A stretch of 55,653 nt of DNA from Actinomycetes bacterium (lineage in GTDB: Bacteria; Actinomycetota; Acidimicrobiia; IMCC26256; Chersky-534). Of the stretch, positions 27,215 through 36,574 are shown piece by piece; the first letter of the stretch is position 1; each line of letters starts with the position of its first letter. The stretch is taken from positions 1 to 55,653 of the forward strand of contig JAODBH010000237.1 of NCBI GenBank assembly GCA_025463865.1, read 5' to 3'. The notes beneath the pieces are model-generated. The model was given only the letters and a program-made list of their open reading frames with translations, did not search any database and was not told the DNA's origin. A program made the translations under genes and the position numbers.

Positions 27215-30187
27215 TCAGTTGGGGGCGCTCTTGGACAGGGCCTGCGGGCTCGACCCGGCGCTCGTGGTCGTCGTCCCCGGCCGGGTCGTCGTGGTGGTGC
27301 TGGTACCGCTGGTGGAGAGGTCCTGGGCCTGCTGGAGCAGCTTCCCGACCGCGTCGACGTCGGACTGATACGTGGCGAGATCCCCGCTCTTCAGCGCGGT
27401 CTGAGCGTCGGCGTACTTCTGCGCGGCCTGCTTGATGAGGTCGGAGACCGTGCTCGTGACCCCACTCGGGCTCGTGGTCGCGGTGCTGCCGGGGGTCGTG
27501 GTGGCGGTCGGCGCCGTAGGGCTACCGGTCCGGGGGACGTCGGGGAAGAACTGCGAGAGGGCGTCCTGGACCGTGTCGTCGATCTTGGCCACGCCGTTGT
27601 ACACGACGACCACCTGGCGGAACGCGGGGATCTGGGACCCTGCCTGTCCCTGGACGTAGATGGGCCGGATGTAGAGCAGCGAGTTGCCGATCGGGATCAG
27701 CTGCAGGCTGCCCTGGATGACCTGGGAGCCGTGCCCGCCGAGCAGCGTGAACTCCTGGGAGATCTGCTCGGTGTTGTTGATGGTGTTGTTCACCTGTTCG
27801 GGGCCGGCGACGGTGCGTCCGCTCGGCATGACGAAGGAGCCGAGCTTCCCGTACTCCCCCGGGTCCGAGCCCGCGACCATGAACGACACCAGGTTGGTGA
27901 GCCGGTTGTTCCGCGAGACGGGGACGAACGGCCGCAGCAGGGTGAACTGCACCTTGCTCTCGCCGGGGAGGCGCAGGATCAGGTAGTAGGGGTCGATCCG
28001 GGCGCCGCTCGACGACGCCGCGGTCGGCTGGCTCGTGGAGCTGGTCACCCCGGAGTTGACCACCGTGTCGCCGACCACACCGGTACCCGGATCAGGGGAC
28101 ACGGCCCAGAGGTCGGTCTTGTTGTAGAAGGTCCGCGGGTCGGTCACGTGATACGCGGAGTAGACGTTGGTCTGGAGCGAGAAGAGGCCCTCGGGGTACC
28201 GGAGGTGGGTCTTCAGCTCGGGCGACATCTTCGAACCGTCGGTGAAGAGGTGCGGGAACGCCTTCTCGTAGGCCCGGATGATCGGATCCTTGGCGTCGAC
28301 GACGTAGAACTTCATCGTGCCGTTGTAGGCGTCGACCGTGATCTTGACCGAGTTGCGGATGTAGTTGACCTGTCCGCCCGCGACCGTGTCGACGCTGGCC
28401 GGCTGCGCGTTCGGGTAGGAGCTCGACGTCGTGTAGGCGTCGAGGATCCAGACGGTGCGACCGCCGATCACCGCCGAGTACGGATCGGCGTCGAGGTGCA
28501 GGAACGGCGCCGCCTTCTGGGCCCGCTGCCGGATGTCGCGCAGGTAGAGCACGCGCGTGTTGGCGGTCACCTGGTTCGAGATCAACAGGTTGAAGTCGCT
28601 GAACCGGAGGAAGAACGCGGACTTCCTGAGCAGGCCGGCCGCGCCCGAGCCGATCTTGACGCCGCCGGTACCTGCGTACCGGGTCGTGGCGTCGGCCTTG
28701 CCCTTGCGGGGGTAATCGAACTCCGACTGCTTGGCGTTGACCAGCGAGAAGCCGCTCAAGCCCTCGCCGAAGTAGACCTGCGGGACCTTGAGGGCGATGC
28801 GACCCTCCGGCGGGATGTTGCTCAACAGGTAGGTGGGCAAGCCGTCGCTGGCCGCCGTGTTCCCGGGCGAGACCACGTTGCCGTAGCCGTGCGTGTAGAC
28901 GAGGTGCCGGTTGACCCAGGTCTGGCTCGGCAGGTCGTCCTGGTTGAGCTCGCGCACCGACGACAGGACCTGGGTCAGCCGGCCACCGATGAGGTAGCGG
29001 TCGACGTCGACGTCGTTGAACCGGTAGAAGGTGCCCAGCTGCTGGAACGACTGGAAGTCGCGGATGATGACGTCAGGACCCCACAGGCGCGCGTTCTGGA
29101 TCGTGGGCTCGTCGGCGGCCAGCTTGGCGGCGTCGAGATTGGGCTTGTAGTCGAACTGCCGGACCTTGACGGTGTCGAGGCCGAACGCGGCGCGTGTGGC
29201 CGCGATGTTGTTGCGGATGTAGGGGAGCTCCTTGTTGAACTCGTCGGGGTTGACGCGCGTGCTCTGCACCAGCGCCGGATAGATGCCGCCGACGATGACG
29301 AACACCACCGCCCAGAGACCGACCGCGATGATGGGAAGGATCCAGCCCCGCCGGAAGATGTTGTAGAGGAACAGGATCGCGGCCGCGACCGCGATCACGG
29401 TCAGGAGGTTGAGCCCGGGTAGTTGCGCGTGGAGATCGGTGTAGGTCGCGCCCGCGACCGTCCCGCGCGACGAGAAGCTCAGTTCGTAGCGGTCGACGAA
29501 GAAGTACTGGATCGCCCGCACGAGCGCCATGAGGCCCAGCAGCACGGAGAGGTGCGCCTTCACCTGCGGGGTGACCCGTTGGAACGGCGTCTGCAGGCGG
29601 ATGCCACCGTTGAGGTAGTGGGCGATGAGCGTGATGAAGAACACCATCAGCAGCGTGTTGAACGTCCACTGCACGATGAACTTCAGGAAGGGCAGCTGGA
29701 AGACGTAGAACCCGATGTCGAGGTGGAAGTTGGGATCCGTCTTCCCGAAGTCGACCCGGTGGGTGAAGAGGATCCATTGCTGCCAGTGCGACGCGACGTT
29801 CACGCCGAAGAGCAGCGCGAACAGGATCGCGATCCCGATGCGGATGCGGAACGCGTAGGGCGCCACCGCGTCCTGGTACCGACCGATGACCTCGTCCTCC
29901 GGGCCGAGCGAGCGGAAGCGCGGCGCGAGCCGGTCGGCGATGATCAGGTTGGCGAGCAGCACCACGAAGACGATCGCGGTGAAGACGAACGCGGGCACGA
30001 GCTTCGCGAGCAGCAGGCTCCGCCAGGTCTGGTCCTGTCCGATCGACTTGAACCACATCTGGTCGGTCCAGAAGCCGGCCAGCCCGCGCAGGCTGATCAA
30101 CAGGACGATCAGGACCGCGATTGCGATCCCGATGGCCCAGTAGCGCACATGACTCGGACGACGACGTTCGATCGTGGGGACGCGCAT
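27215..30187 (-). CDS. UPF0182 family large membrane protein
   Basis: A 990-aa protein of the usual family length. The first 300 residues hold about seven transmembrane helices (IGIAIAVLIVLLISL, LVPAFVFTAIVFVVLLANLI, and others), followed by a long extracytoplasmic domain with PPEGRIALKVPQVYFGEGLSG and LPGESKVQFTLLRPFVP, and a C-terminal Thr/Ser/Pro-rich stretch. The function is not established. In mycobacteria the family member Rv3193c lies next to the PDZ protein Rv3194c; here the two are separated only by the DivIVA-like gene, so the link is conserved. Confidence 0.9.
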   Translation of the reverse strand: MRVPTIERRRPSHVRYWAIGIAIAVLIVLLISLRGLAGFWTDQMWFKSIGQDQTWRSLLLAKLVPAFVFTAIVFVVLLANLIIADRLAPRFRSLGPEDEVIGRYQDAVAPYAFRIRIGIAILFALLFGVNVASHWQQWILFTHRVDFGKTDPNFHLDIGFYVFQLPFLKFIVQWTFNTLLMVFFITLIAHYLNGGIRLQTPFQRVTPQVKAHLSVLLGLMALVRAIQYFFVDRYELSFSSRGTVAGATYTDLHAQLPGLNLLTVIAVAAAILFLYNIFRRGWILPIIAVGLWAVVFVIVGGIYPALVQSTRVNPDEFNKELPYIRNNIAATRAAFGLDTVKVRQFDYKPNLDAAKLAADEPTIQNARLWGPDVIIRDFQSFQQLGTFYRFNDVDVDRYLIGGRLTQVLSSVRELNQDDLPSQTWVNRHLVYTHGYGNVVSPGNTAASDGLPTYLLSNIPPEGRIALKVPQVYFGEGLSGFSLVNAKQSEFDYPRKGKADATTRYAGTGGVKIGSGAAGLLRKSAFFLRFSDFNLLISNQVTANTRVLYLRDIRQRAQKAAPFLHLDADPYSAVIGGRTVWILDAYTTSSSYPNAQPASVDTVAGGQVNYIRNSVKITVDAYNGTMKFYVVDAKDPIIRAYEKAFPHLFTDGSKMSPELKTHLRYPEGLFSLQTNVYSAYHVTDPRTFYNKTDLWAVSPDPGTGVVGDTVVNSGVTSSTSQPTAASSSGARIDPYYLILRLPGESKVQFTLLRPFVPVSRNNRLTNLVSFMVAGSDPGEYGKLGSFVMPSGRTVAGPEQVNNTINNTEQISQEFTLLGGHGSQVIQGSLQLIPIGNSLLYIRPIYVQGQAGSQIPAFRQVVVVYNGVAKIDDTVQDALSQFFPDVPRTGSPTAPTATTTPGSTATTSPSGVTSTVSDLIKQAAQKYADAQTALKSGDLATYQSDVDAVGKLLQQAQDLSTSGTSTTTTTRPGTTTTSAGSSPQALSKSAPN

Positions 30188-30256: not shown

Positions 30257-32788
30257 TCAGCGGTCGGCTGATCGGCCTGCGTCGACCCGCACGAGCGGGG
30301 TGGACATGGCGACCATCAACAGACAGCGACAGCCGGGGTGGGCGGGCGGGAAGGGCTGCCCGGTCGGGAAGCACTGGCCGCGAACGGTCGGCTCCAGCGC
30401 GTTGTCGTCGCAATCGGGGCAACGTCCCACCACCGCGGGCACCCACTCGAGCAGCGCTCCGGCGGGAGCGGCTTCGTAGACGCCGCGCGCGTACGCGACC
30501 GCGAGGCCGTCGCCCAGCGCGTTCTCGAGGTTCTGGTTCTTCCACTCCCGGAAGCGGGCGCTGACCCGCCCGGCGACGTCGTCGTCCTCGTCGGGCTCGC
30601 TGGAGTCGCCGGAGATCGCGGGGACGAGCCGCTCGCGGAGCGGGACCACCAGCGCCTCCGCGAGCTCGGCGGCCAGACCGACCGGGAGCTCGGAGTCGGC
30701 GGGGTCGTCGACCGTCGCGTAGCCGGCGGCGAAGGCGGCGTGGACCGCGTCGGACAAGACGGTGGTCCAGAGCTCGATCTGCTCCTCGACCGGCGGCAGC
30801 ACCTTGGCGGCCACCGGCCGGCCCCGTTGCGTCCGCAGCGCGTCGAGCAACGCGTTCTGGTCGTCCTGCAGGGTCCGCTTCGCGCGGCGGGCGAGGTCGC
30901 GGCCGACCTTGGTGAGGGCCAGATCGCGGGCCGCGCGCGCCTGCACCGGCCTGCTCTCGGCCTCGGCGGCCCGGGCGTCGTCGACTGCGTCGGATCCCTC
31001 GGTGTCGGCGGTGTCGGCGGTGACCACGACCGTGAGCCCGTCGATCGTGACCTCCTGCAGCACGACCGACTCGGTGGTCCCAGGGGCGTCGGCGACGGAG
31101 GTCTCGGGCGGGGAACCCTCGACCGCGGAACCGGCTGAGCCCTCGGGCCCAGAGGCCGGAGGCTCCTCGGTGACGGTCGTGGCGGTGTCGGCCCTGAGGC
31201 GCGCGAAGAGCGCACCGACGTCACGGGGCTCGCCGCTCTCGTCCGCAGCGTCGGCGGTGGACTCGACGGGAGTGGGCTCGACGGCAGTGGGCTCGACGGC
31301 AGTGGGCTCGACGGGAGTGGGCTCGACAGCCGCGGACTCGTCGAGCGCGGGCTCGACGGGAGTGGGCTCGGCGAGCGCGGGCTCTGCGGACGGCCGCGAT
31401 TCCTCGGTCGCCTGAGTGGTGGAGCTTTCGAGGGTGGAGCTCTCGAGGGTGGGGCTTTCGAGGGTGGAGCTCTCGAGGGTGGAGCGCTCGGAGGTCGGCT
31501 GCTCCTCGGTCGCCGGCAACGGTTCGGCGGTCTCCGCCGCTTCCGGATCGGGCTCGTAGCCAAGAGTGGAGCGGAGGTAGCCCCGGAGGCCGGGACGACG
31601 GGCGGGCGCGGCGGCTTGCGCGACCGCCTCGGCCGCGAGCCCGGTCGAGTCCGCAGCGGGTGCGGGCTCCGAGGCAACGCCCGCGGTCGGAACGCCCGGA
31701 CCCGCCGGCTCCTCGATGATGCGAACCCTCTCCGCGACCTCGCCCACGACGATGCCGATCGCCGGCGATGCGGGGCTCTTGGATACCGGGCCTGGAGCGA
31801 CGTTGCTGTCCGGCTCGGATGCTTCCCCCGGGTGGTCCGGGGCCGGAGCGTCGCCGTCGCTCCCGCTCGCTCCGGCTTCGTCGCGGGCATCGGCACGGCC
31901 CGACGCGTTCGGGTCGAGGACCGCACCGGTGGCGTCGGCGCTGATCTCGTCGTCGAACATCCCGAGGTCGGCTTCGACGGTCACGATCGGCTGCGGGCCG
32001 GTGGTCTCGAAGTGGCCGAGCTCGCTCGAGGCCCGGAACTCGACCTGGGCCAGCGCCTCGGTCGCCGAGCCGAGCGTGTCCTTCACGACGCGGTACGCGT
32101 CGAGCAACCGGTCGCGGCCGCGGCGCAGCTCGTCGACCTGCGCCTGCAGCAACTCGCGCCGCTTGTCGAGGTCGCCCAGCACCCGGTCGCGCAGCGCGCG
32201 CGATTCGGTGACCATCTCGCGTCCGGCGGTCTTGGCCGCTTCGAGCTCCGCGGCGGCCGCGTCGGCGGCCGCGGTCCGGACGCGCTCCGCGTCGGACGCG
32301 GCCAACTCCACCACGCGCGCAGCATCGGTCTCCGCCGCCGCGCGCAGCTCGGAGGCCACGGCCTCGGCGTCGCGCGTGCGGTCGGCGAGGAGCTCGGCGC
32401 TCTCCTCGCGGAGACGGTCCGACTCGACCTGCGCTTCCGACACGAGCAAGCCCGCGCGGGCCTCGGCCTTCGACCGGATCTCCTCCGCCGCCTCGTTCGC
32501 GGAGCGCAGCACACGTGCGGTCTCCTCGCCCAGTGACACGAGCAGCTGCTGCTCGGTGGGCGGGGGCGGGTTCTTGATCTGGCCTTCGAGCGCTTCGACC
32601 CGGCCGCGGAGATCGGTCTCGGTCGTGCGCATCCGCAGGAGCTCGTCGGAGACCCGGCGGAGATAGTTGCGGACCTCGGTGTCCGAGATGCCCCGGAACT
32701 GGTGGGAGAACGTCCGGTTTGCCACCTCTTCGGGGGTCAGGCGCCCCGGTCCTGGCGACGTCCGTCGCGGCGTGTCCTCTTCAGCCAT
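30257..32788 (-). CDS. DivIVA-domain coiled-coil protein with phage MuF-like C-terminal motif
   Basis: An 843-aa protein from ATG 32788. Residues 14-60 (LTPEEVANRTFSHQFRG, then EVRNYLRRV) resemble the DivIVA/Wag31 membrane-curvature domain, followed by about 170 residues of alanine/glutamate coiled coil. The middle (about 300-560) is acidic and repetitive, including VEPTP and STLES pentads. The C-terminal 200 residues are helical (ARDLALTKVGRDLARRAKR) and end in CPDC, then PPAHPGCRCLL at about residues 790-822, a pattern I know from phage Mu gpF-like minor head proteins. It may be a polar or septal scaffold. It sits between UPF0182 and a PDZ-protease gene. Confidence 0.7.
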   Translation of the reverse strand: MAEEDTPRRTSPGPGRLTPEEVANRTFSHQFRGISDTEVRNYLRRVSDELLRMRTTETDLRGRVEALEGQIKNPPPPTEQQLLVSLGEETARVLRSANEAAEEIRSKAEARAGLLVSEAQVESDRLREESAELLADRTRDAEAVASELRAAAETDAARVVELAASDAERVRTAAADAAAAELEAAKTAGREMVTESRALRDRVLGDLDKRRELLQAQVDELRRGRDRLLDAYRVVKDTLGSATEALAQVEFRASSELGHFETTGPQPIVTVEADLGMFDDEISADATGAVLDPNASGRADARDEAGASGSDGDAPAPDHPGEASEPDSNVAPGPVSKSPASPAIGIVVGEVAERVRIIEEPAGPGVPTAGVASEPAPAADSTGLAAEAVAQAAAPARRPGLRGYLRSTLGYEPDPEAAETAEPLPATEEQPTSERSTLESSTLESPTLESSTLESSTTQATEESRPSAEPALAEPTPVEPALDESAAVEPTPVEPTAVEPTAVEPTPVESTADAADESGEPRDVGALFARLRADTATTVTEEPPASGPEGSAGSAVEGSPPETSVADAPGTTESVVLQEVTIDGLTVVVTADTADTEGSDAVDDARAAEAESRPVQARAARDLALTKVGRDLARRAKRTLQDDQNALLDALRTQRGRPVAAKVLPPVEEQIELWTTVLSDAVHAAFAAGYATVDDPADSELPVGLAAELAEALVVPLRERLVPAISGDSSEPDEDDDVAGRVSARFREWKNQNLENALGDGLAVAYARGVYEAAPAGALLEWVPAVVGRCPDCDDNALEPTVRGQCFPTGQPFPPAHPGCRCLLMVAMSTPLVRVDAGRSADR
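31269..31328. repeat. four 15-bp coding repeats (VEPTP/VEPTA)
   Basis: Units of 15 bp at 31269, 31284, 31299 and 31314 encode the pentads of the acidic middle region of the DivIVA-like protein; more degenerate copies continue beyond. Confidence 0.8.
31421..31495. repeat. five 15-bp coding repeats (STLES)
   Basis: Units start at 31421, 31436, 31451, 31466 and 31481. They encode Ser-Thr-Leu-Glu-Ser-like pentads and keep the frame, so copy-number change would alter linker length only. Confidence 0.8.
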
Positions 32789-32917
32789 GCCGCTCACCCC
32801 CGTCGACGGCACCGCCGTCCGATCCGTGCCTCTGGCCGCCCCGGATCTCGGGCGGCGTGGGAGACATGGTATTCGGAGCGGTCACCCCGAGGGGAGAACC
32901 AGTTCGGGAACCTCGGG

Positions 32918-34018
32918 TCACGCCGCGGGCGGGCTCTTGGTCAGCAGCGGGTGGAACGGTGCCCCGCCGTTGCGCTGCAGGACCGCCAGCGCCTCGTCGA
33001 GGGTCTTGACGCCGACGACCTTCATCGAGCCGGCCTTCTTCCGCGCGTCCTTGACCTCCGCCATGGGCGTGATCATCAGCTTCACGCCTGCCCGACGCGC
33101 GGTCACCGCCTTCTGCGGCACTCCGCCCACCTCCTGCACCTCGCCGTTCGGGCCGATCGCACCCGTCACCGCCACCGGGCGTGGGCCGGTGAGGTTGCCG
33201 GGCGTCAGCTCGTCGAGGATCGTCAGCGTGAAGGCCAGTCCGGCGCTGTCACCGCTCACCGGACCCGGCTCGATCTGGACGTCGATCGGGAACTTGTACC
33301 GGAGATCCTTGGTGTAGGTCGTGATGCCGAGGAACGAGGCTCCGTCGCGGGCGACGGTGACGATCGGGACGTCGATCTCCTTGCCCGACCGCTGCACCTT
33401 CAAGGTGACCGTGCTTCCCGGCGCCACCGCGCGCACAGCCGGCCGAACGTCGTCGGCGAGCGGAGTGGACTGGGCGTCGACCCCGACGATGACGTCGTTG
33501 GGCCGGAGCCTGCCGTCGGCCGGGCTTCCCTTCTCGACGGTCCCGACCACCGCGCCCTTGCCGCTGACCGGGACCGTGTACCCGAGCTTCTCGAGCGCGA
33601 CCTTGCGCGCGAGGTCCTGCGACTGGCTCATCAACTGGACCGAGAGCTGGTTGCTCTGTTCGGGGGTGAGTGACCCGTTGACCTGCTGCTCGGGGACGAC
33701 CTGGGTGTCGGGATCCAGGTAGGCGTCGGCAAGCCGCAGGAGGCTGGGACGGTCGGCGACGCTGACGGTGAGGAACAGGACGCCGCCTGCGTGGCGGTAG
33801 GCGCGAGTGCCCGACACCGACACGACGTTCGCGACGGGCGTCGCGTCTCCGGGGGAGATCACGACCTTGTGCGGATGGATCGCAAACCCGGCGACCAGCG
33901 CGACGGCAAGGATCACTCCGAGGATCGAGAAGACGATCGGCGAACGGGCCCGGCGCTTCCGGGCGGTCGTCACGGGCGCGTCCGCTGCCGCCGGAACGTC
34001 GTCTTGCAAGTCGGACAT
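32918..34018 (-). CDS. PDZ-domain, Lon-like (S16) membrane protease, YlbL type
   Basis: A 366-aa protein from ATG 34018. One N-terminal transmembrane helix (about residues 32-52) is followed by an extracytoplasmic region, a PDZ domain (about 165-235: GAVVGTVEKGSPADGRLRPNDVIVGVD) and a C-terminal Lon-like protease domain. The nucleophile Ser is in GPVSGDSAGLAFTL and the catalytic Lys in GVPQKAVTARRAG. It is the counterpart of mycobacterial Rv3194c and Bacillus YlbL, thought to degrade or release membrane proteins. An in-frame extension to 34105 is arginine/proline-rich and less likely. Confidence 0.87.
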   Translation of the reverse strand: MSDLQDDVPAAADAPVTTARKRRARSPIVFSILGVILAVALVAGFAIHPHKVVISPGDATPVANVVSVSGTRAYRHAGGVLFLTVSVADRPSLLRLADAYLDPDTQVVPEQQVNGSLTPEQSNQLSVQLMSQSQDLARKVALEKLGYTVPVSGKGAVVGTVEKGSPADGRLRPNDVIVGVDAQSTPLADDVRPAVRAVAPGSTVTLKVQRSGKEIDVPIVTVARDGASFLGITTYTKDLRYKFPIDVQIEPGPVSGDSAGLAFTLTILDELTPGNLTGPRPVAVTGAIGPNGEVQEVGGVPQKAVTARRAGVKLMITPMAEVKDARKKAGSMKVVGVKTLDEALAVLQRNGGAPFHPLLTKSPPAA

Positions 34019-34137
34019 CTGGGTTCCCGTTCGGGGTGCCCGGCTCCGGTCGGGAGCGGCGTAGGCGGGCGGCCGTTGGTGAGATGGACGACCGCAGGAT
34101 GCCACGGCTGCGCACCCCAGCGGGCGTCACCCGACGC

Positions 34138-35560: not shown

Positions 35561-36574
35561 CTAGCGACTCTCCCGCGGCTTGCCCATGAACATCTCCTTG
35601 AGCGTGTCGAAGGACTCGAGGCAGCGACCGGCGCCGAGCACGACGCATTCGAGCGGCGCGTCCACGAGGTGCACGGGGAGCGAGGTCTCCTGGCTGATGC
35701 GCTGGTCGAGGCCCTTGAGCATGCCGCCGCCGCCGACGAGGTGGACGCCGTTCATGATGAGGTCCTGCGCGAGCTCGGGCGGCGTCTGCGCGAGCGCGCT
35801 GATGACCGCGTCGCAGATCGCCCGCGTCTGCTCCTCGATCGCGTCGCGCACCTCCTCCGGCGACAGCACGATCACCTTGGGCAGACCGCTCATCAGGTCG
35901 CGGCCGCGGACCTCGGCCTTGAACTCCTCCGCCGTCGGCGCAGCCGAGCCGATCGCGAGCTTGATCTCCTCAGCCGTGCGCTCGCCGACGGCGATGCCGT
36001 ATTCGCGACGCACGTAGGACTGGATCGCGGCGTCGATGTCGAAGGAGCCGACGCGTACCGCTTCCAACGCGACGATCCCGCCGAGCGAGATCACCGCGAC
36101 CTCGGTCGTGCCGCCGCCCACGTCGACGATCATGTTCCCCAGGGGTTCGTGGATCGGCAGGCGTGCGCCGATGGCCGCGGCCATGGGCTGCTCGATGAGG
36201 AAGGTGGCCGCGGCGCCGGCCCGTCGAGCGGCTTCCAGCACCGCCCGCTGCTCCACGTGGGTGATCGCGGACGGCACGCAGATCAGGACGCGCGAGCGGT
36301 AGAGCCGTGACACGCCGGCCCGCTCGAACAGCAGCCGGATCATCCGCTGCGTGATCTCGAAGTCGGTGATCGCACCGCCCCGCAGCGGCCGGACGGCGAC
36401 GATGTAGCCGGGCGTGCGGCCGATCATCTGCCACGCCTCGTGCCCCATGGCCAGGACGTCCTGAGTGCGGCTGTTGAGCGCGATCACGGTCGGCTCGTTG
36501 AGGATGATCCCCTGCCCACGCGAGTAGACGAGCGTGTTCGCGGTGCCGAGGTCGATCGCGAGATCCTTGGTCAC
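35561..36574 (-). CDS. mreB: rod-shape-determining actin homologue MreB
   Basis: A 337-aa actin-fold ATPase. It begins DLAIDLGTANTLVYSRGQGIILNEPTVIAL (phosphate-1), and has PSAITHVEQRAVLEAARRAGA, the phosphate-2 motif MIVDVGGGTTEVAVISLGGI and the adenosine motif VHLVGGGGMLKGLD. The start is GTG 36574, overlapping the stop of a small membrane protein gene by 4 nt. It polymerises on the inner membrane to guide lateral wall growth. No mreC or mreD follows here, so the classic mreBCD order is broken. Confidence 0.92.
   Translation of the reverse strand: MTKDLAIDLGTANTLVYSRGQGIILNEPTVIALNSRTQDVLAMGHEAWQMIGRTPGYIVAVRPLRGGAITDFEITQRMIRLLFERAGVSRLYRSRVLICVPSAITHVEQRAVLEAARRAGAAATFLIEQPMAAAIGARLPIHEPLGNMIVDVGGGTTEVAVISLGGIVALEAVRVGSFDIDAAIQSYVRREYGIAVGERTAEEIKLAIGSAAPTAEEFKAEVRGRDLMSGLPKVIVLSPEEVRDAIEEQTRAICDAVISALAQTPPELAQDLIMNGVHLVGGGGMLKGLDQRISQETSLPVHLVDAPLECVVLGAGRCLESFDTLKEMFMGKPRESR

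Follow-up and report, generated by a model that had tools for sequence, protein, structure and literature searches.

Among the MuF proteins of phages, gp7 of SPP1 is a low-copy protein that binds strongly to the portal and is not needed for assembly, but supports infection (PMC6316719). The function of MuF has been stated as unknown and 96% of the chromosomal muf genes were found to belong to prophages or their remnants (PMC5576092), with that paper also citing a study having SPP1 gp7 as a DNA-binding protein in its title (Stiege 2003). DivIVA proteins gather at sites of negative curvature and recruit partners that differ between species, and in other actinobacteria DivIVA anchors origins through ParB (PMC8872289). 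Here we describe a bacterial gene that joins these two families, in which the C-terminus of a second DivIVA-type protein is almost certainly a domesticated phage MuF (gp7/gpF-like) domain. No published description of a DivIVA–MuF fusion was found in our literature search, the coverage of which left most subscription papers outside.

The fusion gene and its locus

The window (the whole stretch of DNA analysed here, 55,653 nucleotides) carries the DivIVA–MuF fusion gene at positions 30257..32788 of the (-) strand, encoding 843 amino acids from an ATG at 32788, as delineated by its open reading frame, the match to the Pfam DivIVA family and the family alignment. The same frame can be read longer, from a GTG start at 32812 (30257-32812 (-), 851 aa), and 32788 is then its first internal ATG; the coordinates 30257-32788 and the length of 843 aa given in an earlier note on this DNA match the frame taken from that ATG. 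In the numbering of the 851-residue form, residues 25-141 (32390..32740 (-)) make up a DivIVA domain with an FRG loop at the membrane-binding position. This N-terminus scored 53.4 bits (E 3.3e-14) with Pfam DivIVA PF05103, for which the curated cut-off is 28, and the protein scored 23.2 bits with TIGR03544 (cut-off 22), thereby bearing out the DivIVA-type N-terminus proposed in the earlier note. The FRG loop was well kept in 55 relatives (F 98%, R 87% and G 98%). Residues 261-625 (30938..32032 (-)) form a long low-complexity, strongly acidic linker of about 365 aa, rich in A, E, P, S and T and having, as calculated from its composition, a net charge of -56. The linker is followed by a MuF-like domain of about 210 aa (residues 626-835, 30308..30937 (-)), with approximately five predicted helices and then a small beta/knuckle region, as assigned using AF2, Foldseek, hhalign and PHROG 2662/16493. 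The tail of the fusion protein reads CPDCDDNALEPTVRGQCFPTGQPFPPAHPGCRCLL and holds the Cys/His knuckle CPDCDDNAL..FPTGQ..PPAHPGCRC (residues 798-830, 30323..30421 (-)), a predicted metal site; the CPDC...PPAHPGCRCLL pattern that had first been pointed out was indeed present, at residues 798-832 of 851 (790-824 of 843).

A further DivIVA protein, acidic in its tail, is encoded on contig C68 of the same genome (L217:1904-3139 (-)), adjoining sepF-like, ylmE-like and ileS-like ORFs, these neighbours being named by eye from the sequence and not by profile. Since C68 carries this other DivIVA ORF, the fusion protein is not the sole DivIVA of the cell, and it scored 20.2 bits with the Wag31 equivalog NF050102, having a cut-off of 260. 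By its DivIVA domain, the fusion protein is a putative cell-division protein.

The next gene downstream encodes a UPF0182 membrane protein (27215..30187 (-); PF03699, 887.8 bits) and the next gene upstream a PDZ/Lon-type (S16) protease (32918..34105 (-); PF13180, PF05362, SepM-like), which confirmed the two neighbours named in the earlier note, with MreB found further upstream in the same cluster (35561..36574 (-); PF06723, 432.8 bits). Further neighbours in the window were MoaE, SufB and a trypsin-like PDZ protease. Two additional ORFs, of 206 aa ('Y206') and 344 aa ('X'), were set aside as out-of-frame shadows or unassigned, the real gene at the place of Y206 being that of MoaE. When loci were compared, UPF0182 lay directly downstream and co-directional at all of the 102 distinct loci with flanking sequence, of which 101 were counted by script and the last one (L085) had UPF0182 present but with an overlap of the stop-to-stop frames that exceeded the limit of the script. 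The PDZ-Lon gene was located upstream of the fusion gene in 61 of the 86 loci with flank, and MreB was present in 28 of the 62 having more than 4 kb upstream, adjacency of these two thus being far from universal. Because many of the sampled genomes lacking the domain keep PDZ-Lon directly or nearly directly upstream of UPF0182, it is probable that the fusion gene entered a PDZ-Lon/UPF0182 pair that already existed.

In one genome (G097), the ORF directly upstream of UPF0182 is DivIVA-only (154 aa, L232:2462-2923 (-)) and leaves no space for a MuF domain; this would be either an intermediate or the result of a secondary MuF loss, and it implies that the pairing with UPF0182 may involve the DivIVA part and not the MuF head. 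Another genome (G235) holds the triad of PDZ-Lon, DivIVA–MuF and UPF0182 twice, on two contigs (L192 and L193) and with the MuF part matched only partly, suggesting either duplication of the module as one unit or an assembly of mixed origin.

The C-terminal domain was found encoded at 67 loci of the genome collection and in 55 of 61 related genomes. In a sample of the phylum, 37 of 38 Acidimicrobiia genomes matched the domain, as compared to 18 of 359 other genomes, with one of the latter matches (G166) being weak and probably due to chance. In two other classes the domain occurred in 8 of 24 and 16 of 61 sampled genomes, respectively. The named loci belonged to Acidimicrobiia or to loosely classified Actinomycetota, and one record was labelled Acidobacteria. 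Nearly all members read, including those from outside of the class, have kept the DivIVA N-terminus, and among the deep branches read it is present in all but L176, in which the start of the ORF is ambiguous. All three sampled genomes of one genus of the order (G015, G025 and G031; family f15, genus g15) gave no match to the single-sequence query, possibly reflecting a lineage-specific loss.

Fold and conservation of the C-terminal domain

The family alignment of the cellular C-terminal domain (A1, 84 members) displayed a set of invariant residues, namely K26, N34, L37, R41, R136, W171, C179, D181, D184, P197, G199, P204, H206, G208, C209 and C211. Judged from this alignment, chance is excluded as the origin of the C-terminal block, since its C, D, D, P, G, P, H, G, C and C are invariant in 84 relatives. 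The knuckle, with C-x2-C and HPxCRC, was nearly invariant as a whole in A1 and common to a set of viral relatives (A2). The helix-1 signature KR..QDDQN..LD..R (residues 645-660, 30833..30880 (-)) is conserved in the cellular family, with K, R, N, L and R each reaching at least 92% also in the divergent cellular set A4. The signature region had no match to the phage profile for A1, the hhalign alignment of which begins after it, and the pattern KR..Q..QN..L..R is a candidate for a new binding site. Four loci of class members (L194, L195, L207 and L215, of families f19 and f22) have a reshaped knuckle, C..C...W...PPA.P.CTC, in which the conserved His is sometimes absent. In isolate FR_1 (L076:4786-7101 and L214, being the same copy), a frame change splits the fusion gene within the MuF domain just before CPDC, and is either a sequencing error or real.

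Searching with the C-terminus as a single sequence gave nothing significant in Pfam, NCBIfam or PDB; the window protein alone had no match to PF04233 (cut-off 29.6 bits) at E 1 or below, while tblastn gave only weak matches against phage records (E 0.06 and above) and none against plasmids. The relation to MuF surfaced only through profiles and PHROGs. The window domain alone matched PHROG 16493 (head maturation protease) at E 7e-6, and among the 84 members of A1, PF04233 (Phage_Mu_F) matched 28 at E 0.1 or below (best 4.6e-5) and PHROG 2662, which is named portal protein and holds portal-MuF fusions, matched 81 (best 2.6e-16). Profile–profile comparisons of the cellular domain with phage MuF sets gave probabilities of up to 99.5-99.6. 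With hhalign, A1 aligned at a probability of 99.5 (E 8e-23) with viral set A2, having 28 aligned members that all match PF04233, but that were picked by motif patterns from a scan of viral contigs and hence are not independent with regards to the motif. Using instead nine annotated phage proteins not picked by motif patterns (MuF, minor head, head morphogenesis and portal-MuF proteins, including Mu gp30), the probability was 96.6 (E 5e-10), whereas reversed and column-shuffled decoys gave at most 2.1. Weak sequence-profile matches in PDB to ZorA and uS19 appear to stem from helical character or from chance, and the 'minor capsid protein' of JBD30, also considered, is an unrelated Soc-like decoration protein.

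Structure prediction was performed for the MuF domain of the window (AF2; pLDDT 92.7, pTM 0.87) and for that of a distant member from outside of the class (pLDDT 93.2, pTM 0.90). Searching the two models against BFVD with Foldseek gave best E-values of 2.2e-5 and 1.0e-6, with query TM of up to 0.72 and 0.77, respectively, and probabilities of about 1.0, and the named viral matches of both were essentially only portal-MuF, minor-capsid, capsid-maturation and head-morphogenesis proteins. The alignments span the whole domain; many of the pairwise rmsd values were high, from which it follows that part of the match is local; against PDB, Foldseek gave no match for the MuF domain model. The predicted models thus have the same fold as phage MuF proteins. 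The earlier note had likened this C-terminus to phage Mu gpF and named a structure unrelated to MuF as what would speak against it; both models favoured MuF, and the likeness held in hhalign and Foldseek alike, with the window protein alone falling below the PF04233 cut-off.

Predicted role of the MuF-like domain

The overall best explanation, to which we assign a probability of about 60%, is a MuF-tailed DivIVA scaffold with a docking head. The DivIVA domain would bind the membrane at negatively curved sites, at the poles or the septum, with a coiled coil multimerising the DivIVA part, and the long acidic disordered linker would let the C-terminal MuF head, held together by its Cys/His metal (zinc) knuckle, reach out. 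That head may be a docking module that has kept its ancestral grip on an oligomeric partner, being the portal ring in SPP1, and now exerts it on a host protein, most likely one within the adjacent envelope module (UPF0182 or the PDZ-Lon protease). A function of the MuF domain as a protein-docking head on a polar or septal scaffold appears reasonably probable to us. UPF0182 is the first candidate because of the gene linkage, and we put it forward as the direct partner only tentatively.

The MuF domain could instead lack a partner of its own and only oligomerise or stabilise the scaffold, as its helical body could self-associate and the invariant polar residues K26, N34, R41, R136, D181 and D184 could form a buried network. 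We find such a structural cap rather unlikely, because the near-fixation in the class and the invariant residues on a linker-tethered domain suggest a specific interaction, and a cap would have no use for the linker. It is also possible to envision the MuF head as a tether that binds chromosomal DNA and holds it at the pole or septum, either in place of ParB or in its support, which would agree with the title given to SPP1 gp7, with the anchoring of origins by DivIVA and ParB in other actinobacteria and with the conservation of the basic residues K645, R646, R660 and R755. The cellular MuF domain is, however, acidic (median pI 4.85, net charge -4.8 per 100 aa), and more so than the phage MuF sets, which argues against generic DNA binding, and the acidic linker is likewise unfavourable for DNA; tethering of DNA is therefore an unlikely function. 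Very unlikely is a role as an anti-phage decoy, in which the cellular MuF would bind the portal proteins of infecting phages, as the SPP1 protein binds its portal, and thereby spoil head assembly and sequester portals at the membrane, since the gene is core, syntenic and strongly conserved, neither lying in a defence island nor evolving fast, and the cellular helix-1 signature is not part of the region aligned with the phage profile.

Origin of the domain and comparison with known systems

The Cys/His motif supplied most of the profile score, which together with the failure of the window sequence by itself to match PF04233 at E 1 or below would fit with convergence, i.e. an unrelated helical domain and a zinc knuckle happening to end in PPAHPGCRC. 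When the helical halves were aligned without the motif, hhalign nevertheless gave probabilities of 74 for A1 and 92 for set A4, with reversed decoys below 1, and the Foldseek match covers the entire domain, making convergence highly improbable. An unrooted tree of 85 domains (139 columns) had one branch, with 97/99 support, parting the cellular from the phage domains, which is consistent with a single capture of the MuF domain from phage. The tree being unrooted and short, the direction from phage to cell is instead what we infer from how widely MuF occurs in tailed phages, set against a cellular family that, as far as searched, stays within one phylum. After the capture, the domain appears to have been inherited vertically, as part of a gene that belongs to the core set of Acidimicrobiia and of certain sister lineages.

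None of the scanned genes in the window was recognised as a phage gene, the PF04860 and PF05133 profiles found no portal homologue in the same genome, and in place of a portal or terminase neighbour the gene has PDZ-Lon and UPF0182 at its sides. A prophage remnant or a mis-assembly that joined phage and divIVA genes, although chromosomal MuF genes are usually prophage-linked (PMC5576092), can be dismissed because the same fusion with the same neighbour recurs at more than 100 distinct loci in many assemblies, single-contig genomes included. The earlier note was hence right in placing the gene outside of a prophage, in agreement also with the class-wide conservation and the constant UPF0182 neighbour, and its notion of a domesticated phage domain on a DivIVA protein gained support as far as homology and architecture are concerned.

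The DivIVA–MuF gene, fixed in Acidimicrobiia in the manner of a housekeeping gene, suggests a single ancient capture of a viral part, which would then have been turned to a new use in the envelope. A more elaborate scenario, in which an ancestor of Acidimicrobiia domesticated a phage portal-docking domain a single time and made it the effector head of a dedicated polar or septal scaffold recruiting UPF0182, is at present somewhat speculative. A class-wide, syntenic and conserved cellular MuF shows that such a domain can become fixed in the service of the host, and it offers a non-phage system for finding the ligand of MuF. MuF domains serve as markers of phage, and in these bacteria matches to them are poor grounds for prophage calls. 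We know of no function assigned to UPF0182, a large conserved family of membrane proteins, and its linkage to a DivIVA scaffold gives a testable prediction for both. Should the MuF head recruit UPF0182, MuF would for the first time have a cellular role outside of phages, and UPF0182 would gain its first functional handle.

Comparing finally with described systems, the MuF polymorphic toxins of temperate phages (PMC5576092) likewise carry MuF within a fusion protein, but here MuF is the last domain, outside of any prophage, and with only about 16-20 residues following it there is no C-terminal toxin domain, so that reading was rejected. In the portal-MuF fusions (PHROG 2662, the best PHROG match by member count, and gp3 of Arthrobacter phage Sonali, annotated as such a fusion), MuF is also the C-terminal part of a larger protein, with a portal as its N-terminal partner where the present protein has DivIVA. 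With the phage MuF superfamily in general (Mu gpF/SPP1 gp7; PF04233, TIGR01641, PF06152), the protein has in common the fold of helices and knuckle and the pattern W...C-x2-C...PP.HP.CRC, while differing by falling below the PF04233 cut-off, by its own helix-1 signature, by its position C-terminal to DivIVA and by being encoded by a core chromosomal gene without a portal or terminase neighbour. With DivIVA/Wag31 scaffolds (PF05103), it shares the N-terminal DivIVA domain and FRG loop followed by a helical region, and it differs from these in not being a Wag31 equivalog, in coexisting with another DivIVA and in having added a long acidic linker and a MuF domain.
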